A DNA stretch of 64,000 nucleotides. Source: a virus. Of this stretch, positions 7,895 to 64,000 are shown one piece after another (position 1 is the first letter of the stretch; each line of letters opens with the position of its first letter). The translations under genes were made by a program, and so were the position numbers. The notes below the pieces were generated by a model that did no database searches, had not been told where the DNA came from, and saw only the letters and a program-made list of their open reading frames with translations. The stretch lies in the IMG/VR virus record IMGVR_UViG_3300013120_000030, positions 1-64,000 of that record; one strand, 5' to 3'.

Positions 7895-10250
7895 ATGAAA
7901 AAAAATAAAGAGACTTTATCAAGAGATATCTTATCAGATATAACTGTCTATGGAAAGTACGGAAAGTATCTTCCGTTAAAAAGGACAAGAGAACAATGGT
8001 CAGATATAACTTTACGAAATATGGAGATGCATACAAAGAAGTATCCTCATTTAGCAAACGAAATAGCAGAAGCTTACTCGTACGTATTATCAAAGAATGT
8101 ATTCCCTTCTATGAGAGCATTAGAAGATTCGACCCCTATTAAGACTAAGAAAGGATGGTCTACAGCTGGAAATATTAAGATTGGAGATGTATTATATTCT
8201 TCAGACGGATTAGAAACAAATGTTATTGGTGTTCGTAAATTTAAGAATAAACAACTATTTAAAGTTAGTTTTTCGGACAAATCATCATTAACAGCATGTG
8301 ATGAACATTTATGGATTATATCTACTAATGATGATTTAAAAAATAATAAGACACGAGTTGTAGACACGAAATATTTAAGAACACATTTAAAGCAAGGTTC
8401 TAAAAATAATATAGTTATACATAATCCTAATCCTATTCATATGGAAGAAAAAAAGTTATATATTGATCCGTATATTTTAGGACATTGGTTAGGAGATGGA
8501 TATTCAAATGGTGTTCAATTATCTACAAGTGTTGAAGATGCTGAATTTATTACAAATGAGTATAAACTTGCTGGATATAACACTAAACCTTCTGATTCGT
8601 CAAATATATGGACACACTCTGTATATGGATTAAAATGTGATCTAACTAAGTATAATCTTATTAATAATAAACATATACCTGATGATTATATTAACTCTTC
8701 TATTAGACAACGATTAGATATTATACAAGGTTTGATGGACAGTGACGGTCATATTACACCAGATGGTAGATGTTGTTTTCATAATACTAACATGTCTATA
8801 ATTAATGGGTTAAAAGAGATACTAGCTAGTTTAGGAATTAAATATACTAGTGTAACAGTTCCTAAAAAACGAGAACACCATAAAGATGCAATTGTTATAT
8901 CATTCTTTACTACTTTACAAGTATCTAGAATGCCTAGAAAATCTAAACATATCAGATCAGTAATCACAAATCCAAGAACACAAAGACGACATATTATAGA
9001 TATAGAGTCTGTCGGAGTTGGTAATGCGTCTTGTTTTCATGTTGACTCACATGATCATAGTTTTCTTGCCGGAAAAAGAATGATAACAACACATAATAGT
9101 ATGCAGTTCGGTGGACTTCCTATAGAGTTGTCACCTAACAGAATGTTCAACTGCTATAAAAAATCTACAAGATTTATAACAAAAAACGGGGTATCTTCAT
9201 TTGAAGACTTTGAACATGGAGATAAGATAATTGTTCCATCACATACTGGTAAGATGCAGAATGCTATAGTAAGATCATATGGTACGCAAACTTTTAATAA
9301 AGTTACTCTTGTAAGAGCAAAAGTTAAAAAAGAATTAGAAGTAACTTCTGATCATAAATGGCTACTAAGAGATGGTACAGAGACAACTAATCTTAAAAAA
9401 GGAGATGTGATCCTTGGTTCACCAAAAATATTTCAGAATTTTTCTTGGGTAGAAGCATCTCCAATGGAAAAATTATATTGGTGTTATGGATTCGTGTATG
9501 GTGATGGAACCAGGGTTACTTCTGGTAATAATAAGTATTCTATGGTAAGGTTATGCGGAGATGACTTTAAGTACTTACCTAGATTTAAAGAGATGGGCTT
9601 TAAATCATCAGAACCTAATAGTTGCAATGGTGATACGATAGTGTATACAGGGAAGTATCAAAAGACATCTCCAAACCCAGATATAGATGATCATAATATG
9701 ATAAAAGCATTTGTTGTTGGTTATTTAGACGCAGACGGTTCAAAAAATCCAGATTGGTATATAAATAATGATCTTAGTCCATATAAATCTATCCAATCAT
9801 CTGAAAAAGATCACATAAAGTTTATAGAACAATGTTTTGAGTCTGTAGGGTTTTATATAACATCAGAAAAAGATTTAACTGGTCAGAAAACTAATTACGG
9901 GACGAGACCTTTTACAAAGACATTTAGATTAAGTACAAAAGTTGGAACAACTAATATAAATAATCATTGGGTAGTAGAATCGATAGTTCCATCCATAAGT
10001 AAAGATACAGCATGGTGTCTCGAAGTAGAAGAAGATCATAGTTTTATCTTATCCGGAGGTATAGTGACAGGTAACTGTAGCACATTAGCCTGTGATAATA
10101 TAGCATCCTTTAATGAAGCTATGTTTTTACTACTAGGAGGATCTGGCGTTGGTGTAAGTGTACAAAAGCACCATGTTGAAGAGTTGCCAGAATTAACAGG
10201 ACCAAAGAAACGACAACGAAGGTACTTGGTATCAGACTCAATCGAAGGAT
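7895..10250 (+). CDS. Class II ribonucleotide reductase, exon 1 (with two inteins)
   Basis: 5' exon of an adenosylcobalamin-dependent ribonucleotide reductase that makes deoxynucleotides for phage DNA synthesis. The start at 7895 has AGGAGA upstream. Of 785 residues, only about 150 are RNR: residues 1-74 (ending KNVFPSMR), 402-419 (SMQFGGLPIELSPNRMFN) and 728-785 (CSTLACDN... GGSGVGVSVQ... LVSDSIEG). The rest is two inteins (8117-9097, 9152-10075). The reading frame meets a stop codon just after the exon boundary; the Trp codon of the conserved SIEGWADAV segment is split as T (10250) and GG (11219-11220) by a group I intron. The CSTLACDN cysteine is the conserved N-terminal active-site cysteine of RNRs. 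The class II call rests mainly on exon 2. No small subunit or activase gene is present in this window, as expected for a B12 enzyme. Confidence 0.88.
8117..9097 (+). mobile_element. Intein 1 of NrdJ (class 3-like, LAGLIDADG)
   Basis: A 327-residue insertion between PSMR and SMQFGG. It begins with Ala (ALEDSTPIKT, then KGW) instead of Cys or Ser, and ends ITTHN before a Ser. The class 3 signature is complete: Trp in block B (CDEHLW), Cys at block F position 4 (SCFHVDS, then HSFL) and Thr in block G (TTHN). In class 3 inteins the block F cysteine makes the first acyl transfer. A LAGLIDADG homing endonuclease lies inside, with motifs LGHWLGDG (about 8478) and GLMDSDG (about 8731). The frame is continuous with the host gene and all splice motifs are intact, so it should be active. 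Confidence 0.9.
9152..10075 (+). mobile_element. Intein 2 of NrdJ (class 1, LAGLIDADG)
   Basis: A 308-residue insertion directly before the conserved active-site cysteine: MFN, then intein beginning CYKKST, ending IVTGN, then CSTLACDN. The N-terminal Cys and the +1 Cys fit a class 1 intein. The penultimate residue is Gly instead of the usual His, an uncommon variation that may slow Asn cyclisation. Block B has TSDHKW; block F has EVEEDHSFILSGG. LAGLIDADG motifs are YGFVYGDG (about 9486) and GYLDADG (about 9719). Only 18 RNR residues separate it from intein 1. Confidence 0.9.
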
Positions 10251-11218
10251 AAAATAGCCTGTCCTTTTAAAAGCCATTTAACTGCTGGGACGCCCTTAGA
10301 GCTATTCTTACTACAACATATCCCGTTAAGGGAAGGTGTGAACGTTTAAAAAAAGAGTAGATTGGGTAATCAGCATCTAAGTTCCAATAGTAAGGAGTAA
10401 AATGCTAACTGGAAAAAGATCATCGACTATCTCGAAAGAGAGTACTCATGATACTAAGACAATTCATGAGGAAAAGGTGGCATCATTCTATTTCTATATA
10501 CTAAAAGATCCAAGAGATGGACTGATAAAGTATGTAGGAAGAACAATAGACCTAACGTCTAGATATAGACAACATATATACGAGTCTAAGAAGAATAAAA
10601 GAACAAAGAAAGACCGATGGATAGTTTCGTTACTAAGACGAAACATGAAACCTATAATGCGTAAGATATATGCTAAAGAATGTACATTAATTGAAGCTAT
10701 CAATATAGAAGCTTTACTAGTTAAATCTTTTGGTAAAAGGTATACTCTTAAGAATATGCCAGATAATTATCTTGGTACAGTGTTAACAGGTACTACTGTA
10801 TATCAGTACACTTTAGATGGTAAATATGTGTGTAGACATTCTAACTCTAATCAAGCTATGATATCTACAGGCATAAAAGATTGTAATATCCTACGGTGTT
10901 GTAAGAATCAGAACGGTTATGGTTCTAAGACAGCAGGAGACCACTTTTGGTCTTTTATAAAGTACGACACTTATCCACATAAGTATGTTTCTGACTGGAG
11001 AAATCGTAAAGGAAAAACTGTTGTTCAATATTCTATAGATAATACACGTATAAGTGAATTTACTACTGCTCGCGAAGCTGAACGTCAGACTGGTGTATCT
11101 TATAAAAAGATATCATCTGTGTGTAATAAAAGGCAGAAGAGTGCTGGTGGATTTATATGGTCTTTTAAGAATGATAAGATATAGTCAGACATGTATAGAA
11201 ATATACATGAGAGCGTCG
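10251..11218 (+). mobile_element. Group I intron in nrdJ
   Basis: A 968-base self-splicing intron. P1: exon AAGGAT (10245-10250) pairs with GTCCTT (10261-10266), with the usual U-G at the 5' splice site. P10: GCCT (10257-10260) pairs with the 3' exon GGGC (11219-11222). P4: GCTG (10284-10287) with CAGC (10371-10374). P7: GACTAT (10435-10440) with ATAGTC (11181-11186), the latter inside the classic AAGATATAGTC element. A perfect P9-type hairpin spans 11191-11208, and the last base is G (11218). Splicing restores SIEGWADAV of the RNR. The endonuclease frame starts between Q and R and fills the P8 loop. Confidence 0.93.
10402..11184 (+). CDS. GIY-YIG homing endonuclease encoded in the intron
   Basis: A 260-residue endonuclease that should cut intron-less nrdJ alleles and so spread the intron. 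The N-terminal catalytic module has FYILKDPRDG then IKYVGRT (the GIY-YIG pair), followed by RYRQH and a later conserved Glu/Asn stretch. The C-terminal half has two NUMOD1-like DNA-binding repeats: VYQYTLDGKYV... GDHFWSF and VVQYSIDNTRI... GGFIWSF. ATG 10402 has a strong AAGGAG; a GTG at 10477 with GAGGA is an alternative. The first ~25 codons overlap the intron's R and P8 elements and the TAG stop lies within the AAGATATAGTC (S) element, so RNA structure and protein are encoded in the same bases. Confidence 0.9.
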   Translation: MLTGKRSSTISKESTHDTKTIHEEKVASFYFYILKDPRDGLIKYVGRTIDLTSRYRQHIYESKKNKRTKKDRWIVSLLRRNMKPIMRKIYAKECTLIEAINIEALLVKSFGKRYTLKNMPDNYLGTVLTGTTVYQYTLDGKYVCRHSNSNQAMISTGIKDCNILRCCKNQNGYGSKTAGDHFWSFIKYDTYPHKYVSDWRNRKGKTVVQYSIDNTRISEFTTAREAERQTGVSYKKISSVCNKRQKSAGGFIWSFKNDKI

Positions 11219-12654: not shown

Positions 12655-12662
12655 AGGTTATC

Positions 12663-13007
12663 ATGAATTTAAGAATACTCGATGAAGATATGAGATATGA
12701 GAAGAGACTTTCAAAGTCTCTCTCAGGAATGAAGAAAGAACTAGGTTTCGGTGCTAAGAAAAAGATGAGAGAACGTATACGTCAGACATGGTCTGGGTAT
12801 GTGACGAAGTACGAAGACGTTCCTGTCACAGATGAGATACTAGAAGAGATAGCCGACGACTTAGGACAGGTCATAAGTAAGTACAAAGGAATAGATGTAG
12901 GAATAAAAGTTTTAAGAGAAGGATCCAAGTTTGTCATAGAACCTACTAACTATGAGACTTGGGAGTTCTTAGACGAAATATACAAGGAGACTAAAAATGA
13001 AAGCTAA
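12663..13007 (+). CDS. Hypothetical protein
   Basis: A 114-residue protein (MNLRILDEDMRYEKRLSKS...) starting eight bases after nrdJ with GAGGTT upstream. The first half is basic and probably helical (KKELGFGAKKKMRERIRQTW), the second half acidic with a DEILEEIADDLGQVISKYKGI stretch. No membrane segment or catalytic motif is seen. It overlaps the next gene by 11 bases, and its place between nrdJ and dut suggests co-expression during DNA synthesis, but no function can be assigned. Confidence 0.65.
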   Translation: MNLRILDEDMRYEKRLSKSLSGMKKELGFGAKKKMRERIRQTWSGYVTKYEDVPVTDEILEEIADDLGQVISKYKGIDVGIKVLREGSKFVIEPTNYETWEFLDEIYKETKNES

Positions 13008-13834: not shown

Positions 13835-13850
13835 CCTATACTAAGAACAC

Positions 13851-13870: not shown

Positions 13871-13888
13871 ACTTTTAATGGAGGAAAT

Positions 13889-14528: not shown

Positions 14529-14561
14529 ATAGTCTCCTCCATTTAATCTCTCCTGTGATAT

Positions 14562-14596: not shown

Positions 14597-14623
14597 GCCT
14601 TAACAATACTATTTGGCTATACT
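14595..14623 (+). promoter_or_regulatory. Probable sigma70-like promoter
   Basis: TTGCCT (14595-14600) and TATACT (14618-14623) are 17 bases apart, directly behind the terminator and ahead of the Vsr-like endonuclease and tail-fibre genes. The spacer differs from the conserved-spacer promoters at 258, 4494 and 7808, so it may be used at another time. The terminator-promoter arrangement supports it. Confidence 0.55.
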
Positions 14624-14651
14624 ATATTTGGATGGTTATCAAGGAGACAAT

Positions 14652-15143
14652 ATGCCATGTTTAATTTGTAGGAAAGAAGCAGAAGATAAGCTATGTCCAA
14701 GACATGCAAAGAAATACATGTGGGACGAACGTCTTAAAGGTATTAGATTAAGAAAACGTGGTGCGGGTTCGCGGTATACTAAGGCTAAGTATCATAAGAC
14801 TGAGATAGGACTTACAAAGATAGTAGAAAAGATTTATAGTAAGGACCGAGTTGTTACAGCTTGGCATCCTATGTGGGCTAAGAATAGAAAAGGCGTTCTC
14901 TACGAATTCGACATATATGTTCCTGAAAAGAAATTACTAATAGAATACAATGGTGCACAGCACTATAAGTATACTCCGTTTTTCCACAAGACAAAGAAAG
15001 CTTTTCAAAAGCAAAAGACTAGGGATAGAACTAAGAAACGGATGGCTGAACGAAATGGGTATACACTAGTGATCGTTAAGTATGATGAACCTATCATGTA
15101 CGATTACATTAAAACTAAATTAGGAGATAATAATGGCAATTAG
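14652..15143 (+). CDS. Vsr-like PD-(D/E)XK endonuclease, probably homing
   Basis: A 163-residue nuclease. The start at 14652 (MPCLICRKEAED) has AAGGAGA upstream; an upstream in-frame ATG lacks one. An N-terminal Cys/His knuckle (CLICR... LCPRH) is followed by a Vsr/DUF559-type catalytic core: EFDIYVPEKKLLIEYNGAQHY, with Asp, Glu and the Gln-His pair, then a C-terminal basic helix and YTLVIVKYDEP. Phage proteins of this type act as free-standing homing endonucleases or nickases. It sits just ahead of the tail-fibre cassette, overlapping the next gene by 11 bases, and might have promoted the fibre-gene rearrangements seen there (inference). Confidence 0.8.
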   Translation: MPCLICRKEAEDKLCPRHAKKYMWDERLKGIRLRKRGAGSRYTKAKYHKTEIGLTKIVEKIYSKDRVVTAWHPMWAKNRKGVLYEFDIYVPEKKLLIEYNGAQHYKYTPFFHKTKKAFQKQKTRDRTKKRMAERNGYTLVIVKYDEPIMYDYIKTKLGDNNGN

Positions 15144-25799: not shown

Positions 25800-25867
25800 A
25801 GGAGTTATGCTGATACTTAGAGTCGATACCATAATACCGAATATAAACTTTAATGTAAGGAGTCTAC

Positions 25868-26553
25868 ATGAGTAAGATAAGTACGATACAAGGAATGGTA
25901 GATTTTCCTTTAAGAGATTACCAGATAGAAATATTGAATAATCTAGAAGAACATAAAATACAGCATTCTATTTAGGTAGACGAATGAGTAAGTCAACATT
26001 AATATGTTTAGACGCTATATACAATGCTATGACAGCTAATAGACCTACAAGAATACTTATGTATACACAGGTAAGAATGAAGGATGCATTATTTGATAAG
26101 ATTCTTGATTATAGTAGAGGTTTTGCTACACGTATAAGAAATAGTGATGTTAAAGAGGTGTTCTATGGTAATAACGTTATTAGGGTAGAAGGTATTTATC
26201 GACACGGTAATCCAACAAGTGCGATTGGACAATCCGCAGATTATATATACGTAGATGAGGCAGACTTTATTACTAATGACGCAATGGAGAATACTATATT
26301 ACCGATATCAAGTACATCTATTAATTGTAGAGTATGTATGATATCCACAATGTCTGGAATATCTAATACATATTTTAAACGATGGATGACCGACAGAAAC
26401 CTAACAAATGTATACAGTAATACATTTAATCATGTAAATACTGAACACAGTGTATATGTAGAAAACGATGAACTAGAATGGGAGTACTTAGGTTACTCTT
26501 ACTTAAAAGAAAATGTTTCTATTAGATGGCAAGGAAAAACACATGAAACATAA
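25868..26553 (+). pseudogene. Frameshifted, intein-free paralogue of the terminase ATPase domain
   Basis: Two frames together match the ATPase half of the TerL encoded next door. Frame 1 starts at 25868 with AAGGAG (MSKISTIQGMVDFPLRDYQIEIL...) and stops at 25975. A -1 shift at about 25961-25963 continues as AFYLGRRMSKST, the Walker A region, and runs to 26553 (open from ATG 25984). Shared with TerL are SDVKEV/SDVNEI, GQSADYIYVDEADFI/GQNADYIFLDECDYI (Walker B) and ILPIS.T...C. The nuclease half is absent. The P-loop is uninterrupted and reads GRRMSKS where TerL reads GRRMGKT. Most likely a decaying duplicate; a programmed frameshift is less likely, as no classical slippery heptamer is evident. 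Confidence 0.8.
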
Positions 26554-29500
26554 TACAGAACAATCAGAATGGTTCGCTGAAGTATGCGGAGATCCAGCGT
26601 TGTGGGCAGAGACATTCTTACGAGATCCTACTAACCCTCAAGAAGCTTTAAGTCTTAGATCATATCAACGAGAGATCTTAGAAGAGTCAAGAAACTATAA
26701 GTACATGGTCTTGAGGTACGGCAGGCGCATGGGAAAGTGTAGTAAGTATAGTGATATCACGCAGTTACACGATGGAACTAGGTTAACTATTCAAGAATTA
26801 TGGGAAAGATACAACAACGGTGAAGATTTAAGGTTAATGCAACTCGAGAAAGACTTAAGTATAACTTCTTCTATGCCTATCTTAATGGAAGACAATGGTA
26901 AGAAAAAGACTTTTGAAGTAAAGACTAAGAGTGGTAGAAAGATTAATGTTACCGAGAATCATCCTTTGTTAAGGATAGATGGTTGGCAACCTATTGCAGA
27001 TCTTACGGTAGGAGATCAGATACTTGTCCCTTCTAAGGTAGACTACGAAACTACCAAAGAGATAGACGATAGGCTTGTTAAGTTCTTAGGATACTTACTA
27101 GGCGATGGCATGATTACGTCTAGAATAGAACTAATAAATAAAGATATAAACATTATTAATGAGTTCGAACAATCCTCTAAATACTTTGATATTAATACAA
27201 GACATTGGTTAGAACGAGGATGTTACTATTCTAGAGTTGTACGTAAAGGTACAACTAATAATGAAGCTATAGACTATCTTAGAGAGTTAGGCTTGTTTGG
27301 TACTAACTCACATACAAAGTTTGTTCCTAATGTAATATTCGAACTTTCTAAAGACCAACAAGCTTTGTTCTTATCAAGACTTTACGCTTGTGATGGATGG
27401 GCTTCTGTTTCAAAGTCTAACAGGAAGTCTGGGAATTGTGAGATAGGTTATTGTTCTGTATCAGAAGATCTTATATACGGTGTGTCTGATATATTAGTTC
27501 GATTTGGTATTAAACACTTTATAACAGAAAAAAATATAAAGTATAAAGGTACACTTAAAAAAGCATTTCAAATACTTATATGTACAAAGGAAGACATCAC
27601 TACATTTATAAATGACATAGGTATCTTCTCAAAAGAAGAACAATGTAATAATGTTTTACATAATCTAAAAAATAGAAGTGATCTAAAGAATGGATACTTT
27701 TATCAAGTGCCAAAAGAAGCTATACATATATATGATATAAAAACGCCTCGTAAATATGAGATACGAAAAAATTACAATACATCTAAAGAAAAACTTCTCA
27801 GAGCAGCCAAAGATCAACGCATAGAAGACTTAGTTAATATATGTCATAGTGATACTTACTTTGATGAGATAGTTTCTATAACATCTACTGGTAATAATCA
27901 AACTTACGCTATAGAAGTTCCTAGAACTCATAACTATATAGTAGGTAATGTTATAACTCATAACACTGTAGCTTTCTGTGCAGACGCTTTATGGTGGACG
28001 TGCGCTCAACCTTTAGCGAGACTGTACGACGAAAGTGGTACTAAGCAGGTACCTTTAAAAGTCCTCGTTCTCACTCCTATGGACTCACAGATTAAGTTAA
28101 TATTCGATACACTACTAGAGCTATGCTCTGATTCGCCTTTTATACAAGAGTTAAATCCTAAGATAAGAAGATCAGACGTGAACGAGATATCATTTTCTAA
28201 TGGAAGCGTTATCAAAGGTATGACTATAGGTATATCTTCTGCTAACAAAGGAACATCTTGTCGTGGACAAAATGCTGACTATATATTTTTAGATGAGTGT
28301 GACTATATACCTAGAGAGATAATGGAAGAATCTATTCTACCTATTTCTAATACTAATCCTGATTGTAAGATAAGAGCTTGTTCTACTCCATCAGGTAAAC
28401 GTGACCTTTACTTCGAATGGTGTTTCACTAAAGGTAATAAAGTTAACACATCTAACGGATTCATTAACATAGAAGATATTAGACCTGGAGATAAAGTGTT
28501 CGGTGAAGATGGAGAAGAAGAGTTTGTTGTTAGACGTTATAAACAACCATATAAAGGTCAAGTATATTCCGTTGATACTTCTGTTGGTAAGTTTGAATGT
28601 ACTCCTAATCACGAAATTAAGACGTTCGAAGGTTTTAAAAGATGCGAAGATATAACTAAAAAAGATTATATAGCTATTCCTAAAGAGTCATATTCTAAAG
28701 AGAGAATTATTATAGATCCAAAAGTTTACTATAATGAATTTGATAAAGAAAGATGTAAAAACTTTAAAAGATATAAAGAGATTGGTTGTAAGACAACAGC
28801 AGCAAAAGAGATATATGGATCATCGTCGATGAGACGAATACTATTAAAATACGAGAATAATCAACGAGAGTATAGTGATCTATGGCCTATAGATAAACGA
28901 CGACGAGATAATATTATGCGTGCTCAGAAGTTTCTCGATAACATATATACAATAGATAGTAAGAAACTATATAGATTTCTAGGATATTATGTTGCTGAAG
29001 GAAATATACTAAAAGATTTCTCTGGAAATAGACACTACTATGCCGGTATTCAGCTAACATTTAATAGTAATGAGAAAGACTATATTAATGAGGTTATAGA
29101 TACTTCAACGTGTTTGTTTCCTGATGCCAAAATAAGTCAAACCAAGGATAGAACAGATAATTCAACATCTATTCTTATATACTCGTCTTGGATATCTTAT
29201 GCGTTCATAGAACTATGTGGAGAATATTCTAAGTATAAACGTATAAATCCTTCGTTATTATATCATGAGAACACTAAGTGTCTACTCGAGACAGCCATAC
29301 GTGGAGATGGAACAGGCAGTATAGATACTCATTGGACGTATGTGTCAAAATCTGAATCTTTGATTAATCAACTTTTATCAATAGCGTATAGATTTGGTAT
29401 GCCTGTTGGTAAATATTATAACGCAGCGTCTGACTCATATCAGTTAGGAAGAATATCTAGATTTGTTAGACACGAAGATGATACATACTTTATCAAGGTT

Positions 29501-30766
29501 AGAGATATAAAAGTTAGAGAATATGATGATTATGTTTATAATTTAGAAACTAATAGGACACACACATATAATGTTGAGTTTATGTGTACTCACAATTGTA
29601 CAAAGGCTGACGAACTAGGTTGGTGGCATAGACATTATCCTTCATGGCACGAAGATAACCCTAACTGGCTTTCTATCGACGAATGTCTTAGACAAGGGAG
29701 ACCTAAACATGAGAGTACAGAGTTTCAGTACAGATCTGTTATGTCTACAGAAGCATATAATCGTGAGTTCGGTGCAGAGTTCGGTGAAGAGAATCAAGGT
29801 GTTTATAAACATGAGTTATTAGATCGATCTATGGTACGGTATTGTAAAGAATACTTGTCACATAATACAGATGTATTCGATCCTGGGTTTCCTCAAAATC
29901 CTCATAACTTATACGTTATAGGTGTTGACTGGAACACTTACAAGAATGGCGGACAGGTCGTTATGATAGAGTATTGTAGAGAACCTACAATAGTTAACTA
30001 CTTTGACGACGAGAAAGGTGAAGATGTTTACATAGACTTCACTGGTAAGTTCAGACTCTTTTATAGAAAAGGTGTTAAGTCTAAACAGGCTACTCAACGT
30101 GAGACAAGAAAAGAGATCATAAGACTTTTAAAGAACTATAAAGTTGATCACGTATACGTTGACTATGGAGCTGGTGATACTAATATAGAAGAACTTACAC
30201 ATTACGGTAAAGATCATCCAGCACTTAACATAACTCAAAAACTTCATGTTGTAGACTCAGGTTCTAATATAGAACACTATGATCCCGTCCTAAAACAAAA
30301 AGTTAAGAAGAGAGCTAAGTCGATGATGATTAATACAAGTGTGGTATCTTTAGAAGAAGGCAGACTTGTACTTCCTAAAGAAGAAGATTCTAATCATAGA
30401 TTAGTGTCTCAGATGCGCGGTTACGTTATTAAGAGTACTACCATGAAAGGCGACTTTACATATGAAGGTGAAGACCACGTACTAGATGCATTTAATCTAG
30501 CTATATGGGGATTCCATCATCAGTATAGTCTTCTACTAACAAGTAACTATGATAACAAAGTAAGATTCATGGCAAATCCTCTACTAGATAGAGCACCTGT
30601 ACGACAACAAAAACCTCAGAGTCCTATACTAAGTGATTCAATGACGGTACTTAGGGATCCCGAGTTACCAGTTGTTAAAGATGGACCAAAAAAGAGACAA
30701 TTTAATCTTCCTTCGTGGGGTAAGCGATCGGTTGGTCTACAAAAAGGTTTTAGGAGACAGTTTTAA
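26543..30766 (+). CDS. Terminase large subunit, with two inteins
   Basis: ATP-driven DNA packaging motor and nuclease. The start at 26543 (MKHNTEQSEW) is used because AAGGAAA lies just upstream. The precursor of 1,407 residues contains inteins of 409 and 392 residues; the spliced protein has about 606, normal for TerL. Extein motifs: adenine-binding and Walker A (RSYQREIL... YGRRMGK|T), Walker B ADYIFLDECDYI, coupling motif CSTPSG, then RNase H-like nuclease with VIGVDWNTYKNGG, VYVDYGAGDT and GEDHVLDAFNLA supplying the acidic metal ligands. It overlaps the upstream paralogue by 11 bases and the next gene by one. A small subunit is not identified. Confidence 0.95.
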   Translation: MKHNTEQSEWFAEVCGDPALWAETFLRDPTNPQEALSLRSYQREILEESRNYKYMVLRYGRRMGKCSKYSDITQLHDGTRLTIQELWERYNNGEDLRLMQLEKDLSITSSMPILMEDNGKKKTFEVKTKSGRKINVTENHPLLRIDGWQPIADLTVGDQILVPSKVDYETTKEIDDRLVKFLGYLLGDGMITSRIELINKDINIINEFEQSSKYFDINTRHWLERGCYYSRVVRKGTTNNEAIDYLRELGLFGTNSHTKFVPNVIFELSKDQQALFLSRLYACDGWASVSKSNRKSGNCEIGYCSVSEDLIYGVSDILVRFGIKHFITEKNIKYKGTLKKAFQILICTKEDITTFINDIGIFSKEEQCNNVLHNLKNRSDLKNGYFYQVPKEAIHIYDIKTPRKYEIRKNYNTSKEKLLRAAKDQRIEDLVNICHSDTYFDEIVSITSTGNNQTYAIEVPRTHNYIVGNVITHNTVAFCADALWWTCAQPLARLYDESGTKQVPLKVLVLTPMDSQIKLIFDTLLELCSDSPFIQELNPKIRRSDVNEISFSNGSVIKGMTIGISSANKGTSCRGQNADYIFLDECDYIPREIMEESILPISNTNPDCKIRACSTPSGKRDLYFEWCFTKGNKVNTSNGFINIEDIRPGDKVFGEDGEEEFVVRRYKQPYKGQVYSVDTSVGKFECTPNHEIKTFEGFKRCEDITKKDYIAIPKESYSKERIIIDPKVYYNEFDKERCKNFKRYKEIGCKTTAAKEIYGSSSMRRILLKYENNQREYSDLWPIDKRRRDNIMRAQKFLDNIYTIDSKKLYRFLGYYVAEGNILKDFSGNRHYYAGIQLTFNSNEKDYINEVIDTSTCLFPDAKISQTKDRTDNSTSILIYSSWISYAFIELCGEYSKYKRINPSLLYHENTKCLLETAIRGDGTGSIDTHWTYVSKSESLINQLLSIAYRFGMPVGKYYNAASDSYQLGRISRFVRHEDDTYFIKVRDIKVREYDDYVYNLETNRTHTYNVEFMCTHNCTKADELGWWHRHYPSWHEDNPNWLSIDECLRQGRPKHESTEFQYRSVMSTEAYNREFGAEFGEENQGVYKHELLDRSMVRYCKEYLSHNTDVFDPGFPQNPHNLYVIGVDWNTYKNGGQVVMIEYCREPTIVNYFDDEKGEDVYIDFTGKFRLFYRKGVKSKQATQRETRKEIIRLLKNYKVDHVYVDYGAGDTNIEELTHYGKDHPALNITQKLHVVDSGSNIEHYDPVLKQKVKKRAKSMMINTSVVSLEEGRLVLPKEEDSNHRLVSQMRGYVIKSTTMKGDFTYEGEDHVLDAFNLAIWGFHHQYSLLLTSNYDNKVRFMANPLLDRAPVRQQKPQSPILSDSMTVLRDPELPVVKDGPKKRQFNLPSWGKRSVGLQKGFRRQF
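26738..27964 (+). mobile_element. TerL intein 1, in the Walker A motif
   Basis: A 409-residue class 1 intein between GRRMGK and TVAF, so the ATPase P-loop is split until splicing. It starts CSKYSDITQLHDGT and ends VITHN with Thr at +1. Block B is ENHPLL (TENHPLLRIDGW), block F EVPRTHNYIVG. LAGLIDADG motifs are LGYLLGDG (about 27087) and LYACDG (about 27379). All splice residues look intact. Confidence 0.93.
28421..29596 (+). mobile_element. TerL intein 2, after the ATPase coupling motif
   Basis: A 392-residue class 1 intein between DLYFEW and CTKADELGWW, just after motif STPSG. It starts CFTKGNKVNTSNG and ends MCTHN with Cys at +1. Block B is TPNHEI; block F NLETNRTHTYNVE. LAGLIDADG motifs are LGYYVAEG (about 28979) and AIRGDG (about 29295). 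It is unlike intein 1 in sequence, so the two were probably acquired separately. Confidence 0.93.
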
Positions 30767-55700: not shown

Positions 55701-58700
55701 AGAGCGTCTTACTAACCTTATTAAGATGACAACAGGTCTTAGGAGAGATCCTTTTAAGTACGGTGACGGTGTACGCGGTGCAGCCAGATTTATTAGTACA
55801 AGAGGTGGACAGTTAGCTGCAGCAGGACTTGCTTATAAAGCGTTAGATGCGCTCATAGCAGATAATCCTATGCTCGACGAGACAGCTCTTGATCAAGGTA
55901 TAACAGGATTTATCGCCGATAATGTAGCTAAGACTCATTTACTATCATCAAGAATAGCTAATATGACAGGTATAGCTGGCGTAGGTAGATACTTAGACGG
56001 TTTAATGCCAGGGTTTGTATCTAGTGCTCCTGGGGCTATTGTCGGAGCTGCTCTAAACTGGCGACGAGGAATAACTGAGACAGCTGTAGGAGCTGTTAAA
56101 GGTGCTATCTCTAATAGAGTTCTTTCGCCATTAATGCCTGATATGACTAAAACTTACGATCAGTTAGAAGCCGAGTACTCAGGTAAAGAAGAAGTTCCTA
56201 TCATCGAAGGTAGAATGTGGCTCATGGGTACTACTCCATGGCAAGGTAAAAGAGTTATTGGATGGAGACCTAACTGGTATCAACGTATGCATTCGAGATG
56301 GAAAGCTTCTGATAGTTTATACGGTAGTGAATTAAGAAAGCTTTTACATGAGCCTATATTCCCGGTTGGAATAAGTGTTGGAGACATTATCGACCCTTAC
56401 TACATGGAACGAAAACACTACTTCTCAAGGCCTTATGCGGAATGTATTTATCCGCAAGCATTTGTTCAAATACATAATGGTATTAAAATGGTTAAGGATA
56501 TTGTAAAAGGTGATAAGATATACGATGTGGATGGTGTGATTTATAATGTTAAAGATGTTACTAGTAGAAATGTTAAAAATAATGAGAATATTCACTCTGT
56601 TAATTTGGTAGGTATTCATGAACCATTAATAATAAGCGAAGATCATAAACAACCAATTATAAAAGATATTAAATGTAAGTATAAGTCAGCATCGAATAAA
56701 TCATGTGTAGGAGAACACAAAGGGATATGTAAAAAATGTAAAAGTAAAAGAACCTCGTTTGAAATTGATTGGGTTGAAACAAAAGATATAAATGTTGGTG
56801 ATTTTCTAGTTAAACCTATAGTTAGACCAGTGTATAATGGTGATGTTATACAATTATCAAAATATATCAACTTTCGTAACTATGTTGTTGAAAAAGATAT
56901 ATGTTATATTATCGATAAGAATAATAAAAAAACAAAAACAAATGCACAAAATACATTCCGTATTGATGACAAAATAGCTTATTATTTTGGATTGTATCTT
57001 GCTGAAGGTTGGATAAACTTTGGAAGAAACAAACCTCATACAGTTAATACTGTTCATAATATGAAAGAATATGATTATGTTAAAACATATATTACACATA
57101 TGTGTTCAGTATTCAAATGTAGTTACTCAGAGGAAAAACATGATAACTATGTAACATTTCATATACATAATGTTCTGTTAGCTGAATTAATATTTGGTCT
57201 ATTTAATAAAGCATCTGATAAAAAATGTATTCATTTTACTAAGGAAATAGATAGAAAAATAGTGGCTGGAATTATATTCGGTGATGGTCATTATGATATA
57301 TCAAATGTTGTCTTAACTAATACATCATTAAATATTCATGGATATGTTACAACTGTTCTTGAAAATGATATGATTCCAATATGTATTAAAAAACATTGTA
57401 ATAACGGAAAACAATCATATAGAACTTCATTCCCATATTCGTATCTAGATGAGTATAGAATGAAGTATGATTCTAACTATAAAAATAAATGTATACAAAC
57501 TCCTAAAGGGCGATCTAATAGAATATATTTTCGTAATGGATCAATACTAAGACGGGTATTATCTAATGATATTATAGAGTATAAAGATAAACTATACGAT
57601 ATAGTAACAGATTCACCAAAGCAAAGTTTCACTTTATTATCTCATTGTATACATAATTCTGCAGACTTTGGTGCAGATATACCGTTAGGATTAGGACCTA
57701 TAGTTAGTGCTACATTAGGACAAGTTATTAAACCTAAGAAACAGATGCATAGAGAGTTCATGGAAGGTGACGATGTTATAGGTGACTCAGACTTCGCGGC
57801 CAATCCGCCTCCTACGTATAAAGAGATGAGAGGTATGATGAAGACTGGTACATGGAATTCTAATAGTATTGGCAGCAGATCATCATTTATGGGAACAGCT
57901 AGATATGGTGGAACAAAACTATATGGACAACGTATGGCTGACCAAGTACTAGATAACTTTGAAAGTGCAATGGGTCTTGTAGGTTTCGCAGGTCATTCTA
58001 TTAGACAAGGTCTTACCTCGGACGCTGCTATTATTCCGACTGTTGAAACTGCTGGTAGAATAGCTTCACAGTCAAGGTCTTACTATGATATGAATCTTGG
58101 TGGTCTCGGTGTATACTGTTTACCTTATGATGGTAAGGTTCTAACACCTAACGGACTAACTAATATAGGTGAGATTAATAGTGGTGACATAGTTTACGAT
58201 CAATGTTATAGTAAAAAAAAGGTAACGAATACATTCTCACGTATATGTGATGATGATGAGCGAATGTATACCTTTACTTTAAACGCTGGCAAAACGCAAA
58301 TTGATTGTACATGGAATCATCCATTAGCTATATATAGGAAAGAAACATGTCATGACGGTAAAGTAAAACCATGTATACCTAATAGTAAAAAACATTGCAC
58401 TATATGTACGAAACAAGATAAAGAAGTTTATTGGGATTGGGTCCAAGCTCAAGATGTTAAAGTCGGTGATTACGCAGTGATGCCTCTGCCTAAATCAGAT
58501 ACTAGTGTTGAAACTGTTGATCTTAGTGCTTATTCAGACTATTCTTTTTCTGATAAATATATATATACGAGAGCAGGTAACGGATATATAACTGCATTAG
58601 AGATGCTAGAACATAATCCATCATTAACAAGAAAACAACTAAGAGAGTATGTAGATGATAAAGATGCTAAAGAAGCACTATATTCTATTAGAAAAAATAA

Positions 58701-61700
58701 AATACCTACTAGATACGGTAGATATTTAGATATTACACATAATATTGCTTGGTTTATAGGATGGTGGTTAGCTGAGGGATCATCTAACATTAGGAATGAA
58801 GAAGTGATGTTTTCATTAAATATTAATGAACTACATATAGCTAAAACTCTGGGGAAGATATATGCTGAATCGTTCGGTGGAAAGTTTAGAATATATGAGT
58901 ATCCAGATAGAACAATATGTGTGTTAGTTATAAAGAATAAAGTATTAGCATCTTATCTTAAGTCGTTTGGTAACGTTTATACTAAATCTATGAACTCACT
59001 AGTTCATCTATCTGATAATAAACTTAGAGCTTTAATCGATGGAATAATTCAAGGTGATGGTTGGATAAATCATAAGTTACAGCGAGGAGGATTTAAGAGT
59101 GCATCATCTAAACTTGTTAGAGATGTGTGGTTATCGTTATTTAGACTTGGTATTCAATCATCTATAACTATAGATTATCTCGAAAAAGCTAATGGCAGAT
59201 TGTTAAATGGAAAAGTTAGAAAAGATCATGTAAGATCTGAACTTCAGATGTCTAGAGGTGGTTATACCAATTATAGTGATGTTGTTCTAAATCATAAAAA
59301 ATCTAAAGATGTCTCAACTGGTAGAGTGTTTACTAGAGATGGAAACTTATACATTAAGATATCAAATATATCTTCTCTTGATTGTTCAGGAACAAAGGTA
59401 TATGATATAGAAGTAGAAGAATCTCATTGTTTCATAGGAAACTATTTACTACTTCATAACTCTGAAGCATTAAGAAGGTTTGTTACTAAACCTGATTGGA
59501 GAGAATACGGAGTTAATCCTATTCCTAATTTGATGCCTAACTGGCTTCCTGGAAAGTTCTTAAAGGGTGATCCTTTTTGTGTAACAGCGTCAACTATGAT
59601 AGAAGTCAATGGTAATAATCTTAAGCGAGCGGAAGATGTTACAACAGACGATCTTATAAGAACGCACACTGGTAAACTAGTAAAACCATCTTTTATAAAG
59701 AAAAGAAGTATGAAAAATAGTGAATCATTATATAGATTAAAAGTATCATCGTTAAGTTCGTTTCCAATAGAAGCATCTGAAGAGCATCCTATATGGACCG
59801 AATCTGGGTGGAAACATATTAAGGATATTAATATCGGCGAATATGTAGGATATCCTATTTCTGATATTAACGATCTTACTACAACTGATAAGATATTAGA
59901 CTGTTCTAAACTCACACCATATCCATTTGATCATAAATATATATATACGTCTGGTTGTGATCAAGAATTCGTAGATATGATAAGTTATATCGAAACTATT
60001 CAATCTTCATTCAAAAGAGGAGAACTTAAAAATCTTCTATTTAAGAATAACTGGGATCGTAGAAAGTTCGAAAGAGCACAAGTTGCAGTGAGAAATAATA
60101 TAAATAGACGTATTCCTCGCTATATAGATATAAGTTCGCCAGAATGGGGATCGCTGATTGGTTATTATTTGTCTGAAGGATGTATAAATATAAAAGATGA
60201 TAAGTTTATTGGGGTAGGATTCGCTTTTAATATTAATGAGAAAGAATATCATGATGAAGTAATGTCGTGTTTAAAATCAGTATTTAATATTCATTCTAAG
60301 TTATATCAAGCGAAAGGAACCAATGGTTGTAGTGTAATAGTTAATAATTTAGCAATCCCACATATACTATGTGGTTTGTTCGGCAGATACTTTGATGAAA
60401 AACATATAGGTTTGCAGCATATTGATTCTATAAAAGAAACAGTTAGAACCTTGATAAATGGCGATGGATCTTATTATTTTGATAGAGGAAAACCAAGACT
60501 ATCATTGAAGTTAGAGAATCACCAACTACTATATCAGATAAGACAAATATTATTAAGTTATGGGTATGTTGGATATATAAATGATAATAATTTAATAATT
60601 AGAGGTCAAGCAGCTAAAGAATGCGCTTTGTTTATTAATACAACCAAATATAAGGACACAAAGGACTCATCTTATACTTGTAGACACACGTATATAAAAG
60701 ATGGATACGTATGGATGAGGGTATTTGATAACATAGTTATTAAGAATGAAAATGTTTATGGTTTTCAAGTGGACACAGATGACTCATTTTGTACAGCTGG
60801 GATAGCTACTCATAACACAAAGATAAATAATGGAGAGTTAAGACTTCCTGGTCCTGCATACGAGAAGACACACGCTGGTGTAGATAAGTCAATGCCCGCT
60901 AGAGCGTCTATGTTGGGAAGTCCTACTGAACATAGTATTCAGTACTTTACTGGATTGTTACCTCCTCATTTAAAAGAACAGTACGATATTCTTGAGACAG
61001 GAACTAGATACCATGAACAAATACAACAATGGTTAGCAGCCGAAAATCTTTTAGTACAAGCTGAAGCTCTAGTGTATGACGAGAAGAATAATATCTCTGG
61101 TCACGTCGATGCTATCATTAAAGACGGTATGGGTGGTAGAGGTAAGAAAGCTCTTGAAATTAAAACTATAAGTGAAGAAGGCCTTAAGAGATTAGACGGT
61201 CCTAAGTGGCAACACGTTGGACAGATAAACTTTTATATGAACCAGTTAAAGCTTAAGAAGGGTGGCATCCTATATGTGTCTAGAGACAATCCTGCTAACT
61301 TTAAGATGTTTGATGTTAACTATAGTCATAATAGACTAGAGAAAGACTTAGAGAAACTTCATAAAGCTAGATCTGTATCTTCTCAAATGCTTGCTAAGAG
61401 TATAGAAGGTGACGGGTATGGATTTTCTTATTCTTGGTTAGACAGACTTTATATCTTATCTGACGTAGCTCCTACCTCTAAAGAATATAAAGAAGCTAAG
61501 TTCATAGTAGAAAGACAGATAAAAGCTGGTATGCTAGATCCTGATGGAATAGCTAAGTATCACAGAGCTAAGAAACACAGAGATGCTACTGTTAGAAAGT
61601 ACGAATTGTATCCTCTAAGATTTAAAGGAAGAGTCATGTCTCCTGATACAGAAGCTAATATAATGTCTATCAATGATAATATAAAAGCTGGAGCAGAGTA

Positions 61701-64000
61701 CAGTCTTCCTGAAAGATGTTTCGATAAAGATACCAATATTGAAACTGATAAAGGAATAAAGCGTATATGTGATGTATTGATTGGTGACTATGTGAGAACA
61801 CATGATAACAAGTGGAAACAAGTATATAACACTTCTAATAGGAATGTTGATCATAATGAAAAGGTGTATGAAGTTAAAGTTCAATCAAGAGAAAAAGTTA
61901 AAGTTACAGAAGAGCATCCATTCTATGTAATAGAATCTAAACAATGTCATAATTGGTCTCATAAAGATTCTGTTTGCGTTCTAAAGAATAATAAGAAATG
62001 TAGTAAATGTAAACACACATATTATAAAGAATATGAACATCAATGGATACCAGTTAAAGACCTAACTAATAACCACTTTGTAGCAACTCCAATATTGGAT
62101 ATAACTGAAAACTCAGAACCTATCGATGTGTATTCATTATTAAAAGAATATACAAATATAGAAACAGTTGATAATATTATACGATTCTCAAATTATAATG
62201 TTAAAGGAAAAAAACAAGGGATTCAGATACCAAGATATATAGAACGAACACCAGAACTATATGAGTTATTTGGATGGTATCTTGCTGAAGGATCAAGAAA
62301 TTCTGCAAAATACCCATATAATGGCTTAAACTTCGCTCTTAATTCATCAGAAGAGAATATAGCACAACGAATATGTTACTTATTTAATCGTATCTTTGGA
62401 GTTCGTTCTTTCTCTATTAAGAATGTATCAGATAATGGAATAAATGTAAGAATATATTCATCTCTGGTTTCGTTAGTGTTTCAGAAGTTATTTAAACATG
62501 GCTCAAATAATAAATATATTCCATCACTTATATATAATACATCTGAAGATAATCTTAAATCTATGATTAACGCTGTATGGTTAGGTGATGGTTGTTATAA
62601 TAAGAATAGAAAAATAATAAAAGTTATATCATCTTCTTTAATATACGATATAAATAACTTGTTATTAACATTAGGATATATGCCGAGTGTTAACTTTATT
62701 AAAGGTGGAAAGAAAAAAAAGATATATCGTAATAATAAAGAGTCAGTTATTAGTGACTGTTGGACTGTTGAGTGGATTGAGAATCCAAAATGTACAAAAG
62801 ATAGATATATACATGATGATTATTATTATACACGAGTATTATCTAAAAAAAACATATCAATAGATGAAGTATATAATATCGATGTTATTGATTCTAATTC
62901 ATATATAGCTAATGGTTTGGCTGTTCATAACAGTATTGGGGCTGCTTGGGAAAACTTCACTAACACTAATACGTTTCTTGTCAACAAGTTCTTTGCTTAC
63001 AAAGATCCGTTAGAGCATTACAAACAGTATCAATTGTACGGTCAAGAATATACACCATGGACAGATCCTTATGGAAGTTTTATAGCTCCTCAAACTAGAA
63101 CTATGATGGCTCAAGAGAATCCTATAAGTGCTGCAATTAATTGGGGTTTTGGACTTCCTTATCTATTAGGTGGAAGAGCTGGAGGTATATATGGAGCAGT
63201 TGCAGGAGGTGCATATGGTGCTATTCATGGTATGGTAAGAAAAGCTTCTGGAACAATTTATACACCAGAACATATGCAGAAAGAGCGCCAGATAAATGAC
63301 TATTTCGATCAGTTAAAATTCGACAGGAACATGAGAATGGCGTCTTTATCAGAAGGTCTTACTAGGAAAGAATATAGTAATCAAGCAAGATCTACAATGA
63401 CAAGTATACTATCTCAAGGTGGTAAGTATACAGATATGTTTAGAGCTGCTCAGTCTAGCGAGAAACCATATCTAGCTGCATGGTTAGATGAAACTAATCC
63501 AGAACGTAGAGATGAGATAGCTAGATTCTTACCTGAGAAGATGGGTCATGCAATGAGAACATTTTGGCATTCAACTGATAACAAGATGTCTACAAGAGAT
63601 TTCTTAGAATCTACTAGTGCTGACTTGGCTAACGGAAGAAAGACCACGCCTTATAGTATGAATATGTTAGATCCTACTGTAGAACTAGAGGATATAAAAC
63701 TTAAAACTATACAAAATCAAGGTCTTAATCAACACGATTTTGGTCTTGGATGGCAAGAACAAATGCTTAGGGTACAGAATCAGATAGATGATATGCAGAT
63801 AGCTGAGATATCAGCCAGACCTTTAGAACCTGTAAATGTTAATACAGCTGGTATGAAAGCAGCTATATACGAGATGCTTAATCAGATGGGACTTAGTGGA
63901 CGTGTACAATTATATGTTAATAATCATAGTACTAATAATAACAAAGTAACGTTGACTGTTCAACGAGACAGATTACAAACTTTAAAGCGAAGTTTTAATT
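52714..64000 (+). CDS. Giant tape-measure-position protein (partial), with four inteins and a nuclease domain
   Basis: The frame is open from ATG 52714 to the right edge: more than 3,760 codons, incomplete at the 3' end. Four inteins (56443-57657, 58117-59460, 59578-60816, 61717-62931) remove 1,671 residues, leaving about 2,090 of host protein so far. The N-terminus (MAYYDPRTSDERYYDPHRN...) is basic with a short hydrophobic segment. Further regions have Gly/Ala hydrophobic stretches (GGRAGGIYGAVAGGAYGAIHGM near 63170). Between inteins 3 and 4 lies a RecB/Cas4-like PD-(D/E)XK nuclease pattern (60997-61240). The place after two chaperone-like genes suggests a tape measure; an ejected internal protein is the alternative. 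Confidence 0.75.
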   Translation, partial: MAYYDPRTSDERYYDPHRNTSGSLTSSVTSGIGSFAKNAVGYMVMYSAMTFAGGVTSKFIGNIAKTQALKGTGTIAKRISALKAPTLGKIAKQFTPVRHAATRVRMATRPLRQAYKKRARLLERVNRKDSLLGDKARFTSAFRNGKTLAATAGNLLYKHGIKGSVAGYAWDSVAGNLPMYGLEEKAAWNVPGHVMNYAKYMKDNIITFSAFGAIGPIYKGARGTIGLGLRNVMEKNTAFRDKILGNLAKITRPRYSSVQAPTKATNSIFKEDVNNFNTANSYNVFNKAIDATKAAGKTFYSAFIENARTMFAEAGRHGSHNIHKPTKGSVTSFLSRFKKNITDHWQMHREQARYGRTVGVLESEGMRTMKTFEHLGNIESTAGQALEQTTAKNTNMNLINSIRDDQLKPKNFLAQVLSLRPTVTGDVMNTDYISRVGSNFAKYFPKSKAHVVDQAMSNVRMGNDYYSRGKFNVDLSMLSPLHQLKRVTNKIMGLNLSFMIGLPPVGRDLSLGNITGWNSLMGGSVRSTPFNKDTTGLGLIVKSGGVTDTRGNLVQRGTPRTLQQLAADTLGENMSDNLNVSLINGKFYAADGVNLTNLNSMNTVLKYSHPEIFGKAGEAKLSNIKEWIYHSSREPGSIMEANKWLTDANRNTASNPFQWAMKKLDWGVPEAIPNAWRKLKEILTPGRIRHAGKNLNHSQDLQAEMWENLLSKRIDYDKLKAHIPIMRDSMEHTGQEVGMLMQSPTIYQEIAHNSRYLQANQMDSAIFHSDEKFMTKLFNMQESALDQNDVFWKLMKNPDSKAIYETALWNPKKAKDAIPFKRQGRLSDYNSMNVLKTQFVTEGLNVDYSMTNMHPFVDAADTLFKQGHISGTQSTAMKMYGFVSTLFADGNLDNFAKGTPTPQDKTALGAVINTFKKRHNIELEHAMDYISRTEFRTPSRDGKLFQTLKETILDPRLLPSVREQVYDKSPFFALSVGDNGSGKFQTGIKKALDIGAERLTNLIKMTTGLRRDPFKYGDGVRGAARFISTRGGQLAAAGLAYKALDALIADNPMLDETALDQGITGFIADNVAKTHLLSSRIANMTGIAGVGRYLDGLMPGFVSSAPGAIVGAALNWRRGITETAVGAVKGAISNRVLSPLMPDMTKTYDQLEAEYSGKEEVPIIEGRMWLMGTTPWQGKRVIGWRPNWYQRMHSRWKASDSLYGSELRKLLHEPIFPVGISVGDIIDPYYMERKHYFSRPYAECIYPQAFVQIHNGIKMVKDIVKGDKIYDVDGVIYNVKDVTSRNVKNNENIHSVNLVGIHEPLIISEDHKQPIIKDIKCKYKSASNKSCVGEHKGICKKCKSKRTSFEIDWVETKDINVGDFLVKPIVRPVYNGDVIQLSKYINFRNYVVEKDICYIIDKNNKKTKTNAQNTFRIDDKIAYYFGLYLAEGWINFGRNKPHTVNTVHNMKEYDYVKTYITHMCSVFKCSYSEEKHDNYVTFHIHNVLLAELIFGLFNKASDKKCIHFTKEIDRKIVAGIIFGDGHYDISNVVLTNTSLNIHGYVTTVLENDMIPICIKKHCNNGKQSYRTSFPYSYLDEYRMKYDSNYKNKCIQTPKGRSNRIYFRNGSILRRVLSNDIIEYKDKLYDIVTDSPKQSFTLLSHCIHNSADFGADIPLGLGPIVSATLGQVIKPKKQMHREFMEGDDVIGDSDFAANPPPTYKEMRGMMKTGTWNSNSIGSRSSFMGTARYGGTKLYGQRMADQVLDNFESAMGLVGFAGHSIRQGLTSDAAIIPTVETAGRIASQSRSYYDMNLGGLGVYCLPYDGKVLTPNGLTNIGEINSGDIVYDQCYSKKKVTNTFSRICDDDERMYTFTLNAGKTQIDCTWNHPLAIYRKETCHDGKVKPCIPNSKKHCTICTKQDKEVYWDWVQAQDVKVGDYAVMPLPKSDTSVETVDLSAYSDYSFSDKYIYTRAGNGYITALEMLEHNPSLTRKQLREYVDDKDAKEALYSIRKNKIPTRYGRYLDITHNIAWFIGWWLAEGSSNIRNEEVMFSLNINELHIAKTLGKIYAESFGGKFRIYEYPDRTICVLVIKNKVLASYLKSFGNVYTKSMNSLVHLSDNKLRALIDGIIQGDGWINHKLQRGGFKSASSKLVRDVWLSLFRLGIQSSITIDYLEKANGRLLNGKVRKDHVRSELQMSRGGYTNYSDVVLNHKKSKDVSTGRVFTRDGNLYIKISNISSLDCSGTKVYDIEVEESHCFIGNYLLLHNSEALRRFVTKPDWREYGVNPIPNLMPNWLPGKFLKGDPFCVTASTMIEVNGNNLKRAEDVTTDDLIRTHTGKLVKPSFIKKRSMKNSESLYRLKVSSLSSFPIEASEEHPIWTESGWKHIKDINIGEYVGYPISDINDLTTTDKILDCSKLTPYPFDHKYIYTSGCDQEFVDMISYIETIQSSFKRGELKNLLFKNNWDRRKFERAQVAVRNNINRRIPRYIDISSPEWGSLIGYYLSEGCINIKDDKFIGVGFAFNINEKEYHDEVMSCLKSVFNIHSKLYQAKGTNGCSVIVNNLAIPHILCGLFGRYFDEKHIGLQHIDSIKETVRTLINGDGSYYFDRGKPRLSLKLENHQLLYQIRQILLSYGYVGYINDNNLIIRGQAAKECALFINTTKYKDTKDSSYTCRHTYIKDGYVWMRVFDNIVIKNENVYGFQVDTDDSFCTAGIATHNTKINNGELRLPGPAYEKTHAGVDKSMPARASMLGSPTEHSIQYFTGLLPPHLKEQYDILETGTRYHEQIQQWLAAENLLVQAEALVYDEKNNISGHVDAIIKDGMGGRGKKALEIKTISEEGLKRLDGPKWQHVGQINFYMNQLKLKKGGILYVSRDNPANFKMFDVNYSHNRLEKDLEKLHKARSVSSQMLAKSIEGDGYGFSYSWLDRLYILSDVAPTSKEYKEAKFIVERQIKAGMLDPDGIAKYHRAKKHRDATVRKYELYPLRFKGRVMSPDTEANIMSINDNIKAGAEYSLPERCFDKDTNIETDKGIKRICDVLIGDYVRTHDNKWKQVYNTSNRNVDHNEKVYEVKVQSREKVKVTEEHPFYVIESKQCHNWSHKDSVCVLKNNKKCSKCKHTYYKEYEHQWIPVKDLTNNHFVATPILDITENSEPIDVYSLLKEYTNIETVDNIIRFSNYNVKGKKQGIQIPRYIERTPELYELFGWYLAEGSRNSAKYPYNGLNFALNSSEENIAQRICYLFNRIFGVRSFSIKNVSDNGINVRIYSSLVSLVFQKLFKHGSNNKYIPSLIYNTSEDNLKSMINAVWLGDGCYNKNRKIIKVISSSLIYDINNLLLTLGYMPSVNFIKGGKKKKIYRNNKESVISDCWTVEWIENPKCTKDRYIHDDYYYTRVLSKKNISIDEVYNIDVIDSNSYIANGLAVHNSIGAAWENFTNTNTFLVNKFFAYKDPLEHYKQYQLYGQEYTPWTDPYGSFIAPQTRTMMAQENPISAAINWGFGLPYLLGGRAGGIYGAVAGGAYGAIHGMVRKASGTIYTPEHMQKERQINDYFDQLKFDRNMRMASLSEGLTRKEYSNQARSTMTSILSQGGKYTDMFRAAQSSEKPYLAAWLDETNPERRDEIARFLPEKMGHAMRTFWHSTDNKMSTRDFLESTSADLANGRKTTPYSMNMLDPTVELEDIKLKTIQNQGLNQHDFGLGWQEQMLRVQNQIDDMQIAEISARPLEPVNVNTAGMKAAIYEMLNQMGLSGRVQLYVNNHSTNNNKVTLTVQRDRLQTLKRSFN
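56443..57657 (+). mobile_element. Intein A of the giant protein (LAGLIDADG)
   Basis: A 405-residue class 1 intein between RPYAE and SADFGADIP. It starts CIYPQAF and ends HCIHN with Ser at +1. LAGLIDADG motifs: YFGLYLAEG (about 56985) and AGIIFGDG (about 57265). After block B (SEDHKQP) there is an insertion with C-x9-C-x3-H-x3-C-x2-C (from CKYKSA to CKKC, about 56672-56737), then the normal block WVETKDINVGD. The extra motif looks like a zinc ribbon. Confidence 0.9.
58117..59460 (+). mobile_element. Intein B of the giant protein (LAGLIDADG)
   Basis: A 448-residue class 1 intein between GGLGVY and SEALRRF. It starts CLPYDGKVLTPNG and ends LLLHN with Ser at +1. Block B is TWNHPLA; block F EVEESHCFIGNY. 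LAGLIDADG motifs: FIGWWLAEG (about 58750) and DGIIQGDG (about 59035). A four-Cys insertion (CHDGKVKPC...HCTIC, about 58348-58410) follows block B in the same place as in intein A. Only 39 host codons separate it from intein C. Confidence 0.92.
59578..60816 (+). mobile_element. Intein C of the giant protein (LAGLIDADG)
   Basis: A 413-residue class 1 intein between KGDPF and TKINNGEL. It starts CVTASTMIEVNG and ends IATHN with Thr at +1. Block B is SEEHPIW, directly followed by GWKHIKDINIGEY with no Cys insertion, unlike inteins A, B and D. Block F is QVDTDDSFCTAG. LAGLIDADG motifs: IGYYLSEG (about 60153) and LINGDG (about 60454). Confidence 0.92.
61717..62931 (+). mobile_element. Intein D of the giant protein (LAGLIDADG)
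   Basis: A 405-residue class 1 intein between YSLPER and SIGAAWENF. It starts CFDKDTNIETDKG and ends LAVHN with Ser at +1. Block B is TEEHPFYV, followed by a C-x9-C-x6-C-x2-C insertion (QCHNWSHKDSVC...CSKC, about 61945-62015) and then WIPVKDLT. LAGLIDADG motifs: FGWYLAEG (about 62270) and VWLGDG (about 62577). Confidence 0.92.

Follow-up and report, generated by a model that had tools for sequence, protein, structure and literature searches.

A phage genome with a group I intron and at least twelve inteins, the latter most likely gained one at a time by homing

Twelve inteins in a 140-kb phage genome

The virus record IMGVR_UViG_3300013120_000030 (140,183 bp; G000 below) belongs to a phage, i.e., a virus of bacteria, and contains at least twelve inteins and a group I intron, which interrupt several key genes at their active sites. 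With high confidence, there are twelve full-length LAGLIDADG inteins, most likely gained singly by homing, and one group I intron encoding a GIY-YIG enzyme; protein splicing would restore the exteins. Each type of insert is already familiar, and what is unusual in G000 is the intein load, the tight packing and the use of several host sites.

The window analyzed here is the first 64 kb (64,000 nucleotides) of the record, with the same numbering. The initial annotation had reported eight inteins in this window, and all eight are in frame and stop-free, lie each inside one ORF and have junctions exactly as it gave them; their sum is 9,321 bp, or 14.6% of the 64 kb, which it had rounded to about 15%. 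The eight inteins occupy three genes, as it said, but the whole contig holds 12 inteins in seven genes, amounting to 13,824 bp (9.9% of the 140 kb) with no broken ORF in these 13.8 kb of inserted coding sequence. The description of an exceptionally dense set of homing elements is thus supported, and the count behind it was even too low. Outside the window, in contig coordinates, the additional inteins interrupt a helicase/primase (Hel, 113947-114969), a glycosyltransferase (GT1, 118299-119450), a CapD-like nucleotide-sugar epimerase (123080-124156) and a second glycosyltransferase (GT2, 129520-130770). The splice sites can be very close to each other, with 54 bp between the two inteins of the ribonucleotide reductase (RNR1 and RNR2), 175 bp between RNR2 and the intron, and 117 bp between the second and third inteins of a giant protein (G2 and G3).

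Of the eight window inteins, seven are recognized by Pfam/NCBIfam models for inteins or LAGLIDADG enzymes. A custom profile made from the splice blocks at both ends of the 12 inteins found all of them again and no convincing 13th one in the contig. PF14890 alone detects about 7 of the 12, and because of this low sensitivity the intein counts given for other records are minimum values. When 24 kb of the DNA were compared with named phages, no match was obtained.

Other homing enzymes accompany the inteins. The HNH enzyme of the initial annotation is present as a free-standing HNH/endonuclease VII-like ORF (3576..4202, + strand; phrog_1035, 1.6e-12) with two paralogues elsewhere in the contig, and the enzyme that it called Vsr-like is a free-standing ORF that matches homing-endonuclease families (14613..15143, + strand; phrog_559, 5.6e-18; phrog_9084, 1.5e-13). 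Beyond the window, two ORFs are of the GIY-YIG type (110489-111487 and 136975-137829) and three are HNH/EndoVII-like (71548-72216, 95124-95783 and 134551-135342). The C-terminal halves of the 71548-72216 and 95124-95783 ORFs are 81% identical, which suggests that a free-standing endonuclease was copied recently.

Empty sites and allelic relatives

Uninterrupted homologues were found in relatives at all 12 intein sites. The most informative relative is G002 (IMGVR_UViG_3300033146_000946, 147 kb), which is syntenic with most of G000 (protein identities of roughly 23-70%) and has no insert at 11 of the 12 sites, namely, the four of the giant protein, both of the terminase large subunit (TerL1 and TerL2), those of the RNR and of the glycosyltransferases, and that of the helicase. 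The epimerase is missing from G002 and uninterrupted in two other phage records. Counted per locus, with a few loci on the same contig, the RNR sites are empty in 22 cases, TerL1 in 17 and TerL2 in 25, while each giant-protein site is empty in five phages. The inserted segments could have been ordinary extein domains, an outcome that the initial annotation had named as its refutation; the homologues, at 25-64% amino acid identity, lack the segments and are contiguous at every site, and the segments bear HINT/LAGLIDADG signatures, so that this reading is refuted by the empty homologues and retains practically no probability.

Some relatives carry an intein at exactly the G000 site. For TerL1 these alleles are in the loci L059/L060 and L054 (47-52% identity), for TerL2 in L059/L060, L067 and L048 (45-46%), while the Hel and GT1 alleles (38% and 42%, respectively) both come from G044, a record of 213 kb. 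In a maximum-likelihood tree the inteins group by site (TerL1 100/99, TerL2 100/100, Hel 100/99, GT1 100/99) and not by genome. For the other sites, i.e., the four of the giant protein, the two of the RNR, GT2 and the epimerase, the search revealed no allelic intein.

These data bear on the possibility that a single founder, or a few, multiplied within G000 through ectopic copying. G3 and G4, which share a gene, are the only well-supported pair among the G000 inteins (98/97), and several giant-protein and glycosyltransferase inteins form a loose family, as such copying might produce; against it, any two inteins of G000 are mostly 20-31% identical, and alleles elsewhere are far closer (38-52%). 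Ectopic copying as the general source is accordingly quite unlikely, and recent in-genome duplication is ruled out for most inteins by their low mutual identity and allelic grouping. The site-wise grouping of alleles, along with the low identity within G000, favors instead separate arrivals by site-specific homing. Most likely, the inteins entered one at a time: during mixed infection, the endonuclease would cut the intein-free allele of a related phage, and repair of the cut allele would copy the intein in. The clusters in the RNR and giant-protein genes were probably built up stepwise, because neighboring inteins of the haloarchaeal MCM hinder the homing of each other into empty alleles (PMC10643990).

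The intein load differs sharply among the relatives. Pfam detects no intein in 21 RNR-bearing records, G051 has about three and G044 a minimum of five or six, as compared with twelve in G000; the values for the relatives are lower bounds. G002 has zero Pfam matches but is not intein-free, since the splice-block profile and reading by eye reveal an intein in its PolB gene (G002:109796-113218, - strand). This is a divergent Ser1 intein at motif C (LVELD/SVTGDT...VLHN/TDGLA, where a slash marks a splice junction here and below) whose endonuclease motifs look degenerate, and it is not seen by PF14890. Furthermore, G051 has an intein in a Radical-SAM-like protein (L080, 2515-4695), and its endonuclease, as judged by eye, appears to be of the HNH and not of the LAGLIDADG type.

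The interrupted ribonucleotide reductase, terminase and giant protein

The gene for the B12-dependent (class II) RNR (7895..12654, + strand) is interrupted by RNR1, RNR2 and the intron, and is uninterrupted in relatives. RNR1 (8117..9097, + strand; 327 aa; PSMR/A...TTHN/SMQF) has a LAGLIDADG endonuclease and, by its residues, is a class 3 intein: alignment locates the WCT triplet (Trp B:12, Cys F:4, Thr G:5) in EHLW, SCFHV and TTHN, and its first residue is Ala, which makes the class 3 route obligatory. Its closest relative found is a class 3-type TerL intein (L104) from a Porphyromonas MAG, with W, C and T at equivalent places. RNR2 (9152..10075, + strand; 308 aa; MFN/C...VTGN/CSTL) has the triplet as well (DHKW, WCLEV, VTGN), yet begins with Cys and has Gly as penultimate residue, a mixed signature that probably goes with class 3 splicing. 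The class 3 criteria were taken from PMC7664689 and PMC5050341.

The residue at which RNR2 is inserted is a Cys invariant across 22 RNR loci. Such a position would suit an adaptive splicing switch, responsive for example to redox state or temperature, that coordinates maturation of the RNR, the packaging machinery and structural proteins, and conditional splicing has been reported for mycobacterial DnaB inteins (PMC6195587). However, the relatives live without these inteins, and occupancy is patchy among phages, as expected of parasites, which leaves the switch highly improbable.

The group I intron of the initial annotation is real. It is 968 nt long (10251..11218, + strand) and encodes a homing endonuclease with GIY-YIG and NUMOD1 domain matches (10402..11184, + strand), confirming the GIY-YIG enzyme that had been described there. 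Pieces of RF00028 lie on both sides of this ORF, at 10273-10481 and 11176-11206 (28.1 and 22.4 bits; E 1e-4 and 5e-3); since the ORF splits the intron, neither piece alone attains the gathering score of 50 bits. Intron-free RNR relatives read GAAGGA-TGGGC contiguously across the site. By this comparison, the 5' exon ends with T10250 and the intron, whose terminal omega-G is G11218, spans 10251-11218. Reading of the sequence suggests a possible P1, formed by the exon end AAGGAT with GTCCTT just inside the intron, and a possible P7 (GACUA/UAGUC, the two strands). The RNR gene of G002 has an interruption of about 1.1 kb (G002:102801-103897) at a position unlike those of the G000 inserts, and Rfam detects no group I intron in it.

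The terminase large subunit (26513..30766, + strand; 616 aa when spliced) contains TerL1 (26738..27964, + strand; 409 aa; GRRMGK/C...THN/TVAF), inserted in the Walker A motif, and TerL2 (28421..29596, + strand; 392 aa; LYFEW/C...THN/CTKA). Just upstream of the gene, an intein-free segment resembling the TerL ATPase (25867-26553) is 34% identical to TerL and is split by a frame break, so that LRDYQIEIL... and GRRMSKST... are read in different frames; in G002 the segment matches TerL alone, and a separate copy was not seen. This segment is perhaps a decayed second terminase ATPase. The terminases of L008 (6033-6470) and L010 carry a mini-intein of about 146 aa, devoid of endonuclease, whose insertion point precedes the Walker A site used in G000 by a few residues.

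The precursor of the giant protein (ORF 52714-64029, + strand, which ends beyond the 64,000 limit of the window) is 3771 aa long, and 2100 aa remain after in silico removal of its four inteins; in four relatives that are empty at these sites the protein has 2033-2101 aa. The inteins are G1 (56443..57657; 405 aa; RPYAE/C...HN/SADF), G2 (58117..59460; 448 aa; GLGVY/C...HN/SEAL), G3 (59578..60816; 413 aa; KGDPF/C...HN/TKIN) and G4 (61717..62931; 405 aa; SLPER/C...HN/SIGA), all on the + strand, as is the Cas4/PD-(D/E)XK-like domain located between G3 and G4 (60817-61716). G1 is the only window intein lacking a Pfam/NCBIfam family match; it is similar to the neighboring inteins (BLASTP against G2, 7e-14), and a Foldseek search with the structure that AlphaFold predicts for it (mean pLDDT 78) retrieves the solved structures of the full-length inteins TliVMA and PI-SceI, with E values down to 4e-15, and the LAGLIDADG enzyme I-DmoI. 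Single-sequence scans for relatives of the giant protein and of G4 returned few matches. The giant-protein homologue of G051 (L079) has 2820 aa and carries two inteins, neither of which is at a G000 site, although one lies only 10 residues upstream of that of G1.

Residues for splicing and homing

Class 1 residues (Cys1 or Ser1, C-terminal His-Asn, and Cys, Ser or Thr at +1) are present in 10 of the 12 inteins, and 11 have the residues expected for either class 1 or class 3, the exception being RNR2. The claim that the terminal splice residues are intact therefore needs qualifying for RNR1, with the Ala1 of class 3, and for RNR2, in which Gly replaces the penultimate His; Gly at this position is tolerated in some phage inteins (PMC5050341). 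Thus, protein splicing would restore the host proteins by the class 1 route for ten inteins, by class 3 for RNR1 and probably for RNR2.

The LAGLIDADG pairs also hold up in the alignment, in which both acidic motifs are kept in all eight window inteins and both motifs have the catalytic acid in all 12 inteins of the contig. The His of block F is replaced in G1, G3, G4, GT1 and GT2, and for these five splicing efficiency should not be assumed; some inteins of the group formed by these and RNR2 may splice slowly. A more extreme reading is that the inteins are mostly relics, either still splicing out of necessity with dead endonucleases or in part not splicing at all, with some host proteins lost. 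The odd block F residues and the penultimate Gly of RNR2 would fit this, and the mini-intein without endonuclease and the degenerate PolB intein in relatives indicate that decay occurs in the group; nevertheless, the motif pairs are intact in every intein and none of the inserted ORFs is broken, and the relic reading is unlikely. The window inteins are probably active, as the initial annotation had put it, judging from their intact motifs and ORFs. In all 12 inteins GC3 is lower than in the exteins of the same gene, and codon usage shifts at the splice junctions; an interpretation of the low GC3 as recent arrival was dropped, as most TerL inteins checked in relatives show this difference too.

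At four sites, most empty homologues carry a +1 residue that could not serve as the nucleophile. They have E, E, E, V and S at G3; A, A, I, M and T at G4; G, H and E at GT1; and L, L, A and E at GT2, where G000 has the nucleophiles T, S, C and C, respectively; G044, which is intein-bearing at GT1, also has C there. The GT1 and GT2 sites fall between the two Glu of what we take to be the EX7E motif of GT-B enzymes, so that the mature enzymes would retain a Cys scar inside it. The residues suggest either that the +1 codon was co-converted on invasion or that only suitable alleles were invaded; in the haloarchaeal MCM, a +1 Pro was co-converted to Ser (PMC10643990).

Significance and comparison with known systems

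Twelve inteins in 140 kb raise the question of how much splicing load a phage can bear and how such a load accumulates. The paired empty and occupied alleles make the order of homing, the co-conversion of the +1 residue and the interference between neighbors directly testable, and the interference described for MCM (PMC10643990) predicts poor joint homing of packed sets such as RNR1, RNR2 and the intron. For protein engineering, G000 is in addition a source of new inteins of both classes, 1 and 3.

Phage inteins, group I introns and free-standing endonucleases are already well known. There is about an even chance that G000 is the most intein-loaded virus yet, combining two splicing classes, host genes new for inteins (the giant Cas4-domain protein, the two glycosyltransferases and the epimerase) and lasting Cys/Ser/Thr scars left by intein invasion in the mature proteins, with the glycosyltransferases cut in the predicted catalytic motif. 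No report of a phage near 12 inteins was found in open-access text, and the claim of a record is provisional.

The zeta and delta crAss-like phages likewise have large genomes dense in inteins and introns, and a TerL with two inteins; the load of the zeta group, up to 14 introns and 3 inteins, was termed unprecedented (PMC7886860), whereas the 140 kb of G000 hold 12 inteins and a single detected intron. The lineage of G000 differs from these phages, its distant TerL/MCP relatives being MTATph1, ME3 and KLEB27-3. Mycobacteriophage inteins share the TerL ATPase sites, both classes 1 and 3, and penultimate residues other than His, including Gly (PMC5050341), and to these G000 adds the giant protein, the glycosyltransferases, the epimerase and the WCT-type RNR pair. 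Haloarchaeal MCM genes also hold several inteins per gene, with intact endonucleases and a non-nucleophilic +1 residue that needs co-conversion (PMC10643990); compared with their double inteins, G000 has four in one gene and an RNR with two inteins plus an intron. Chrysochromulina ericina virus has many inteins too, eight, a number called unusual, but it is a giant virus of protists and its inteins, unlike those of G000, are biased to DNA-processing enzymes (PMC12550674). Finally, SPbeta, Twort and Brochothrix phage A9 likewise have RNR genes with introns and/or an intein (PMC3653736), whereas the RNR of G000 is of the B12 type, with its inteins 54 bp apart and the intron 175 bp farther on.
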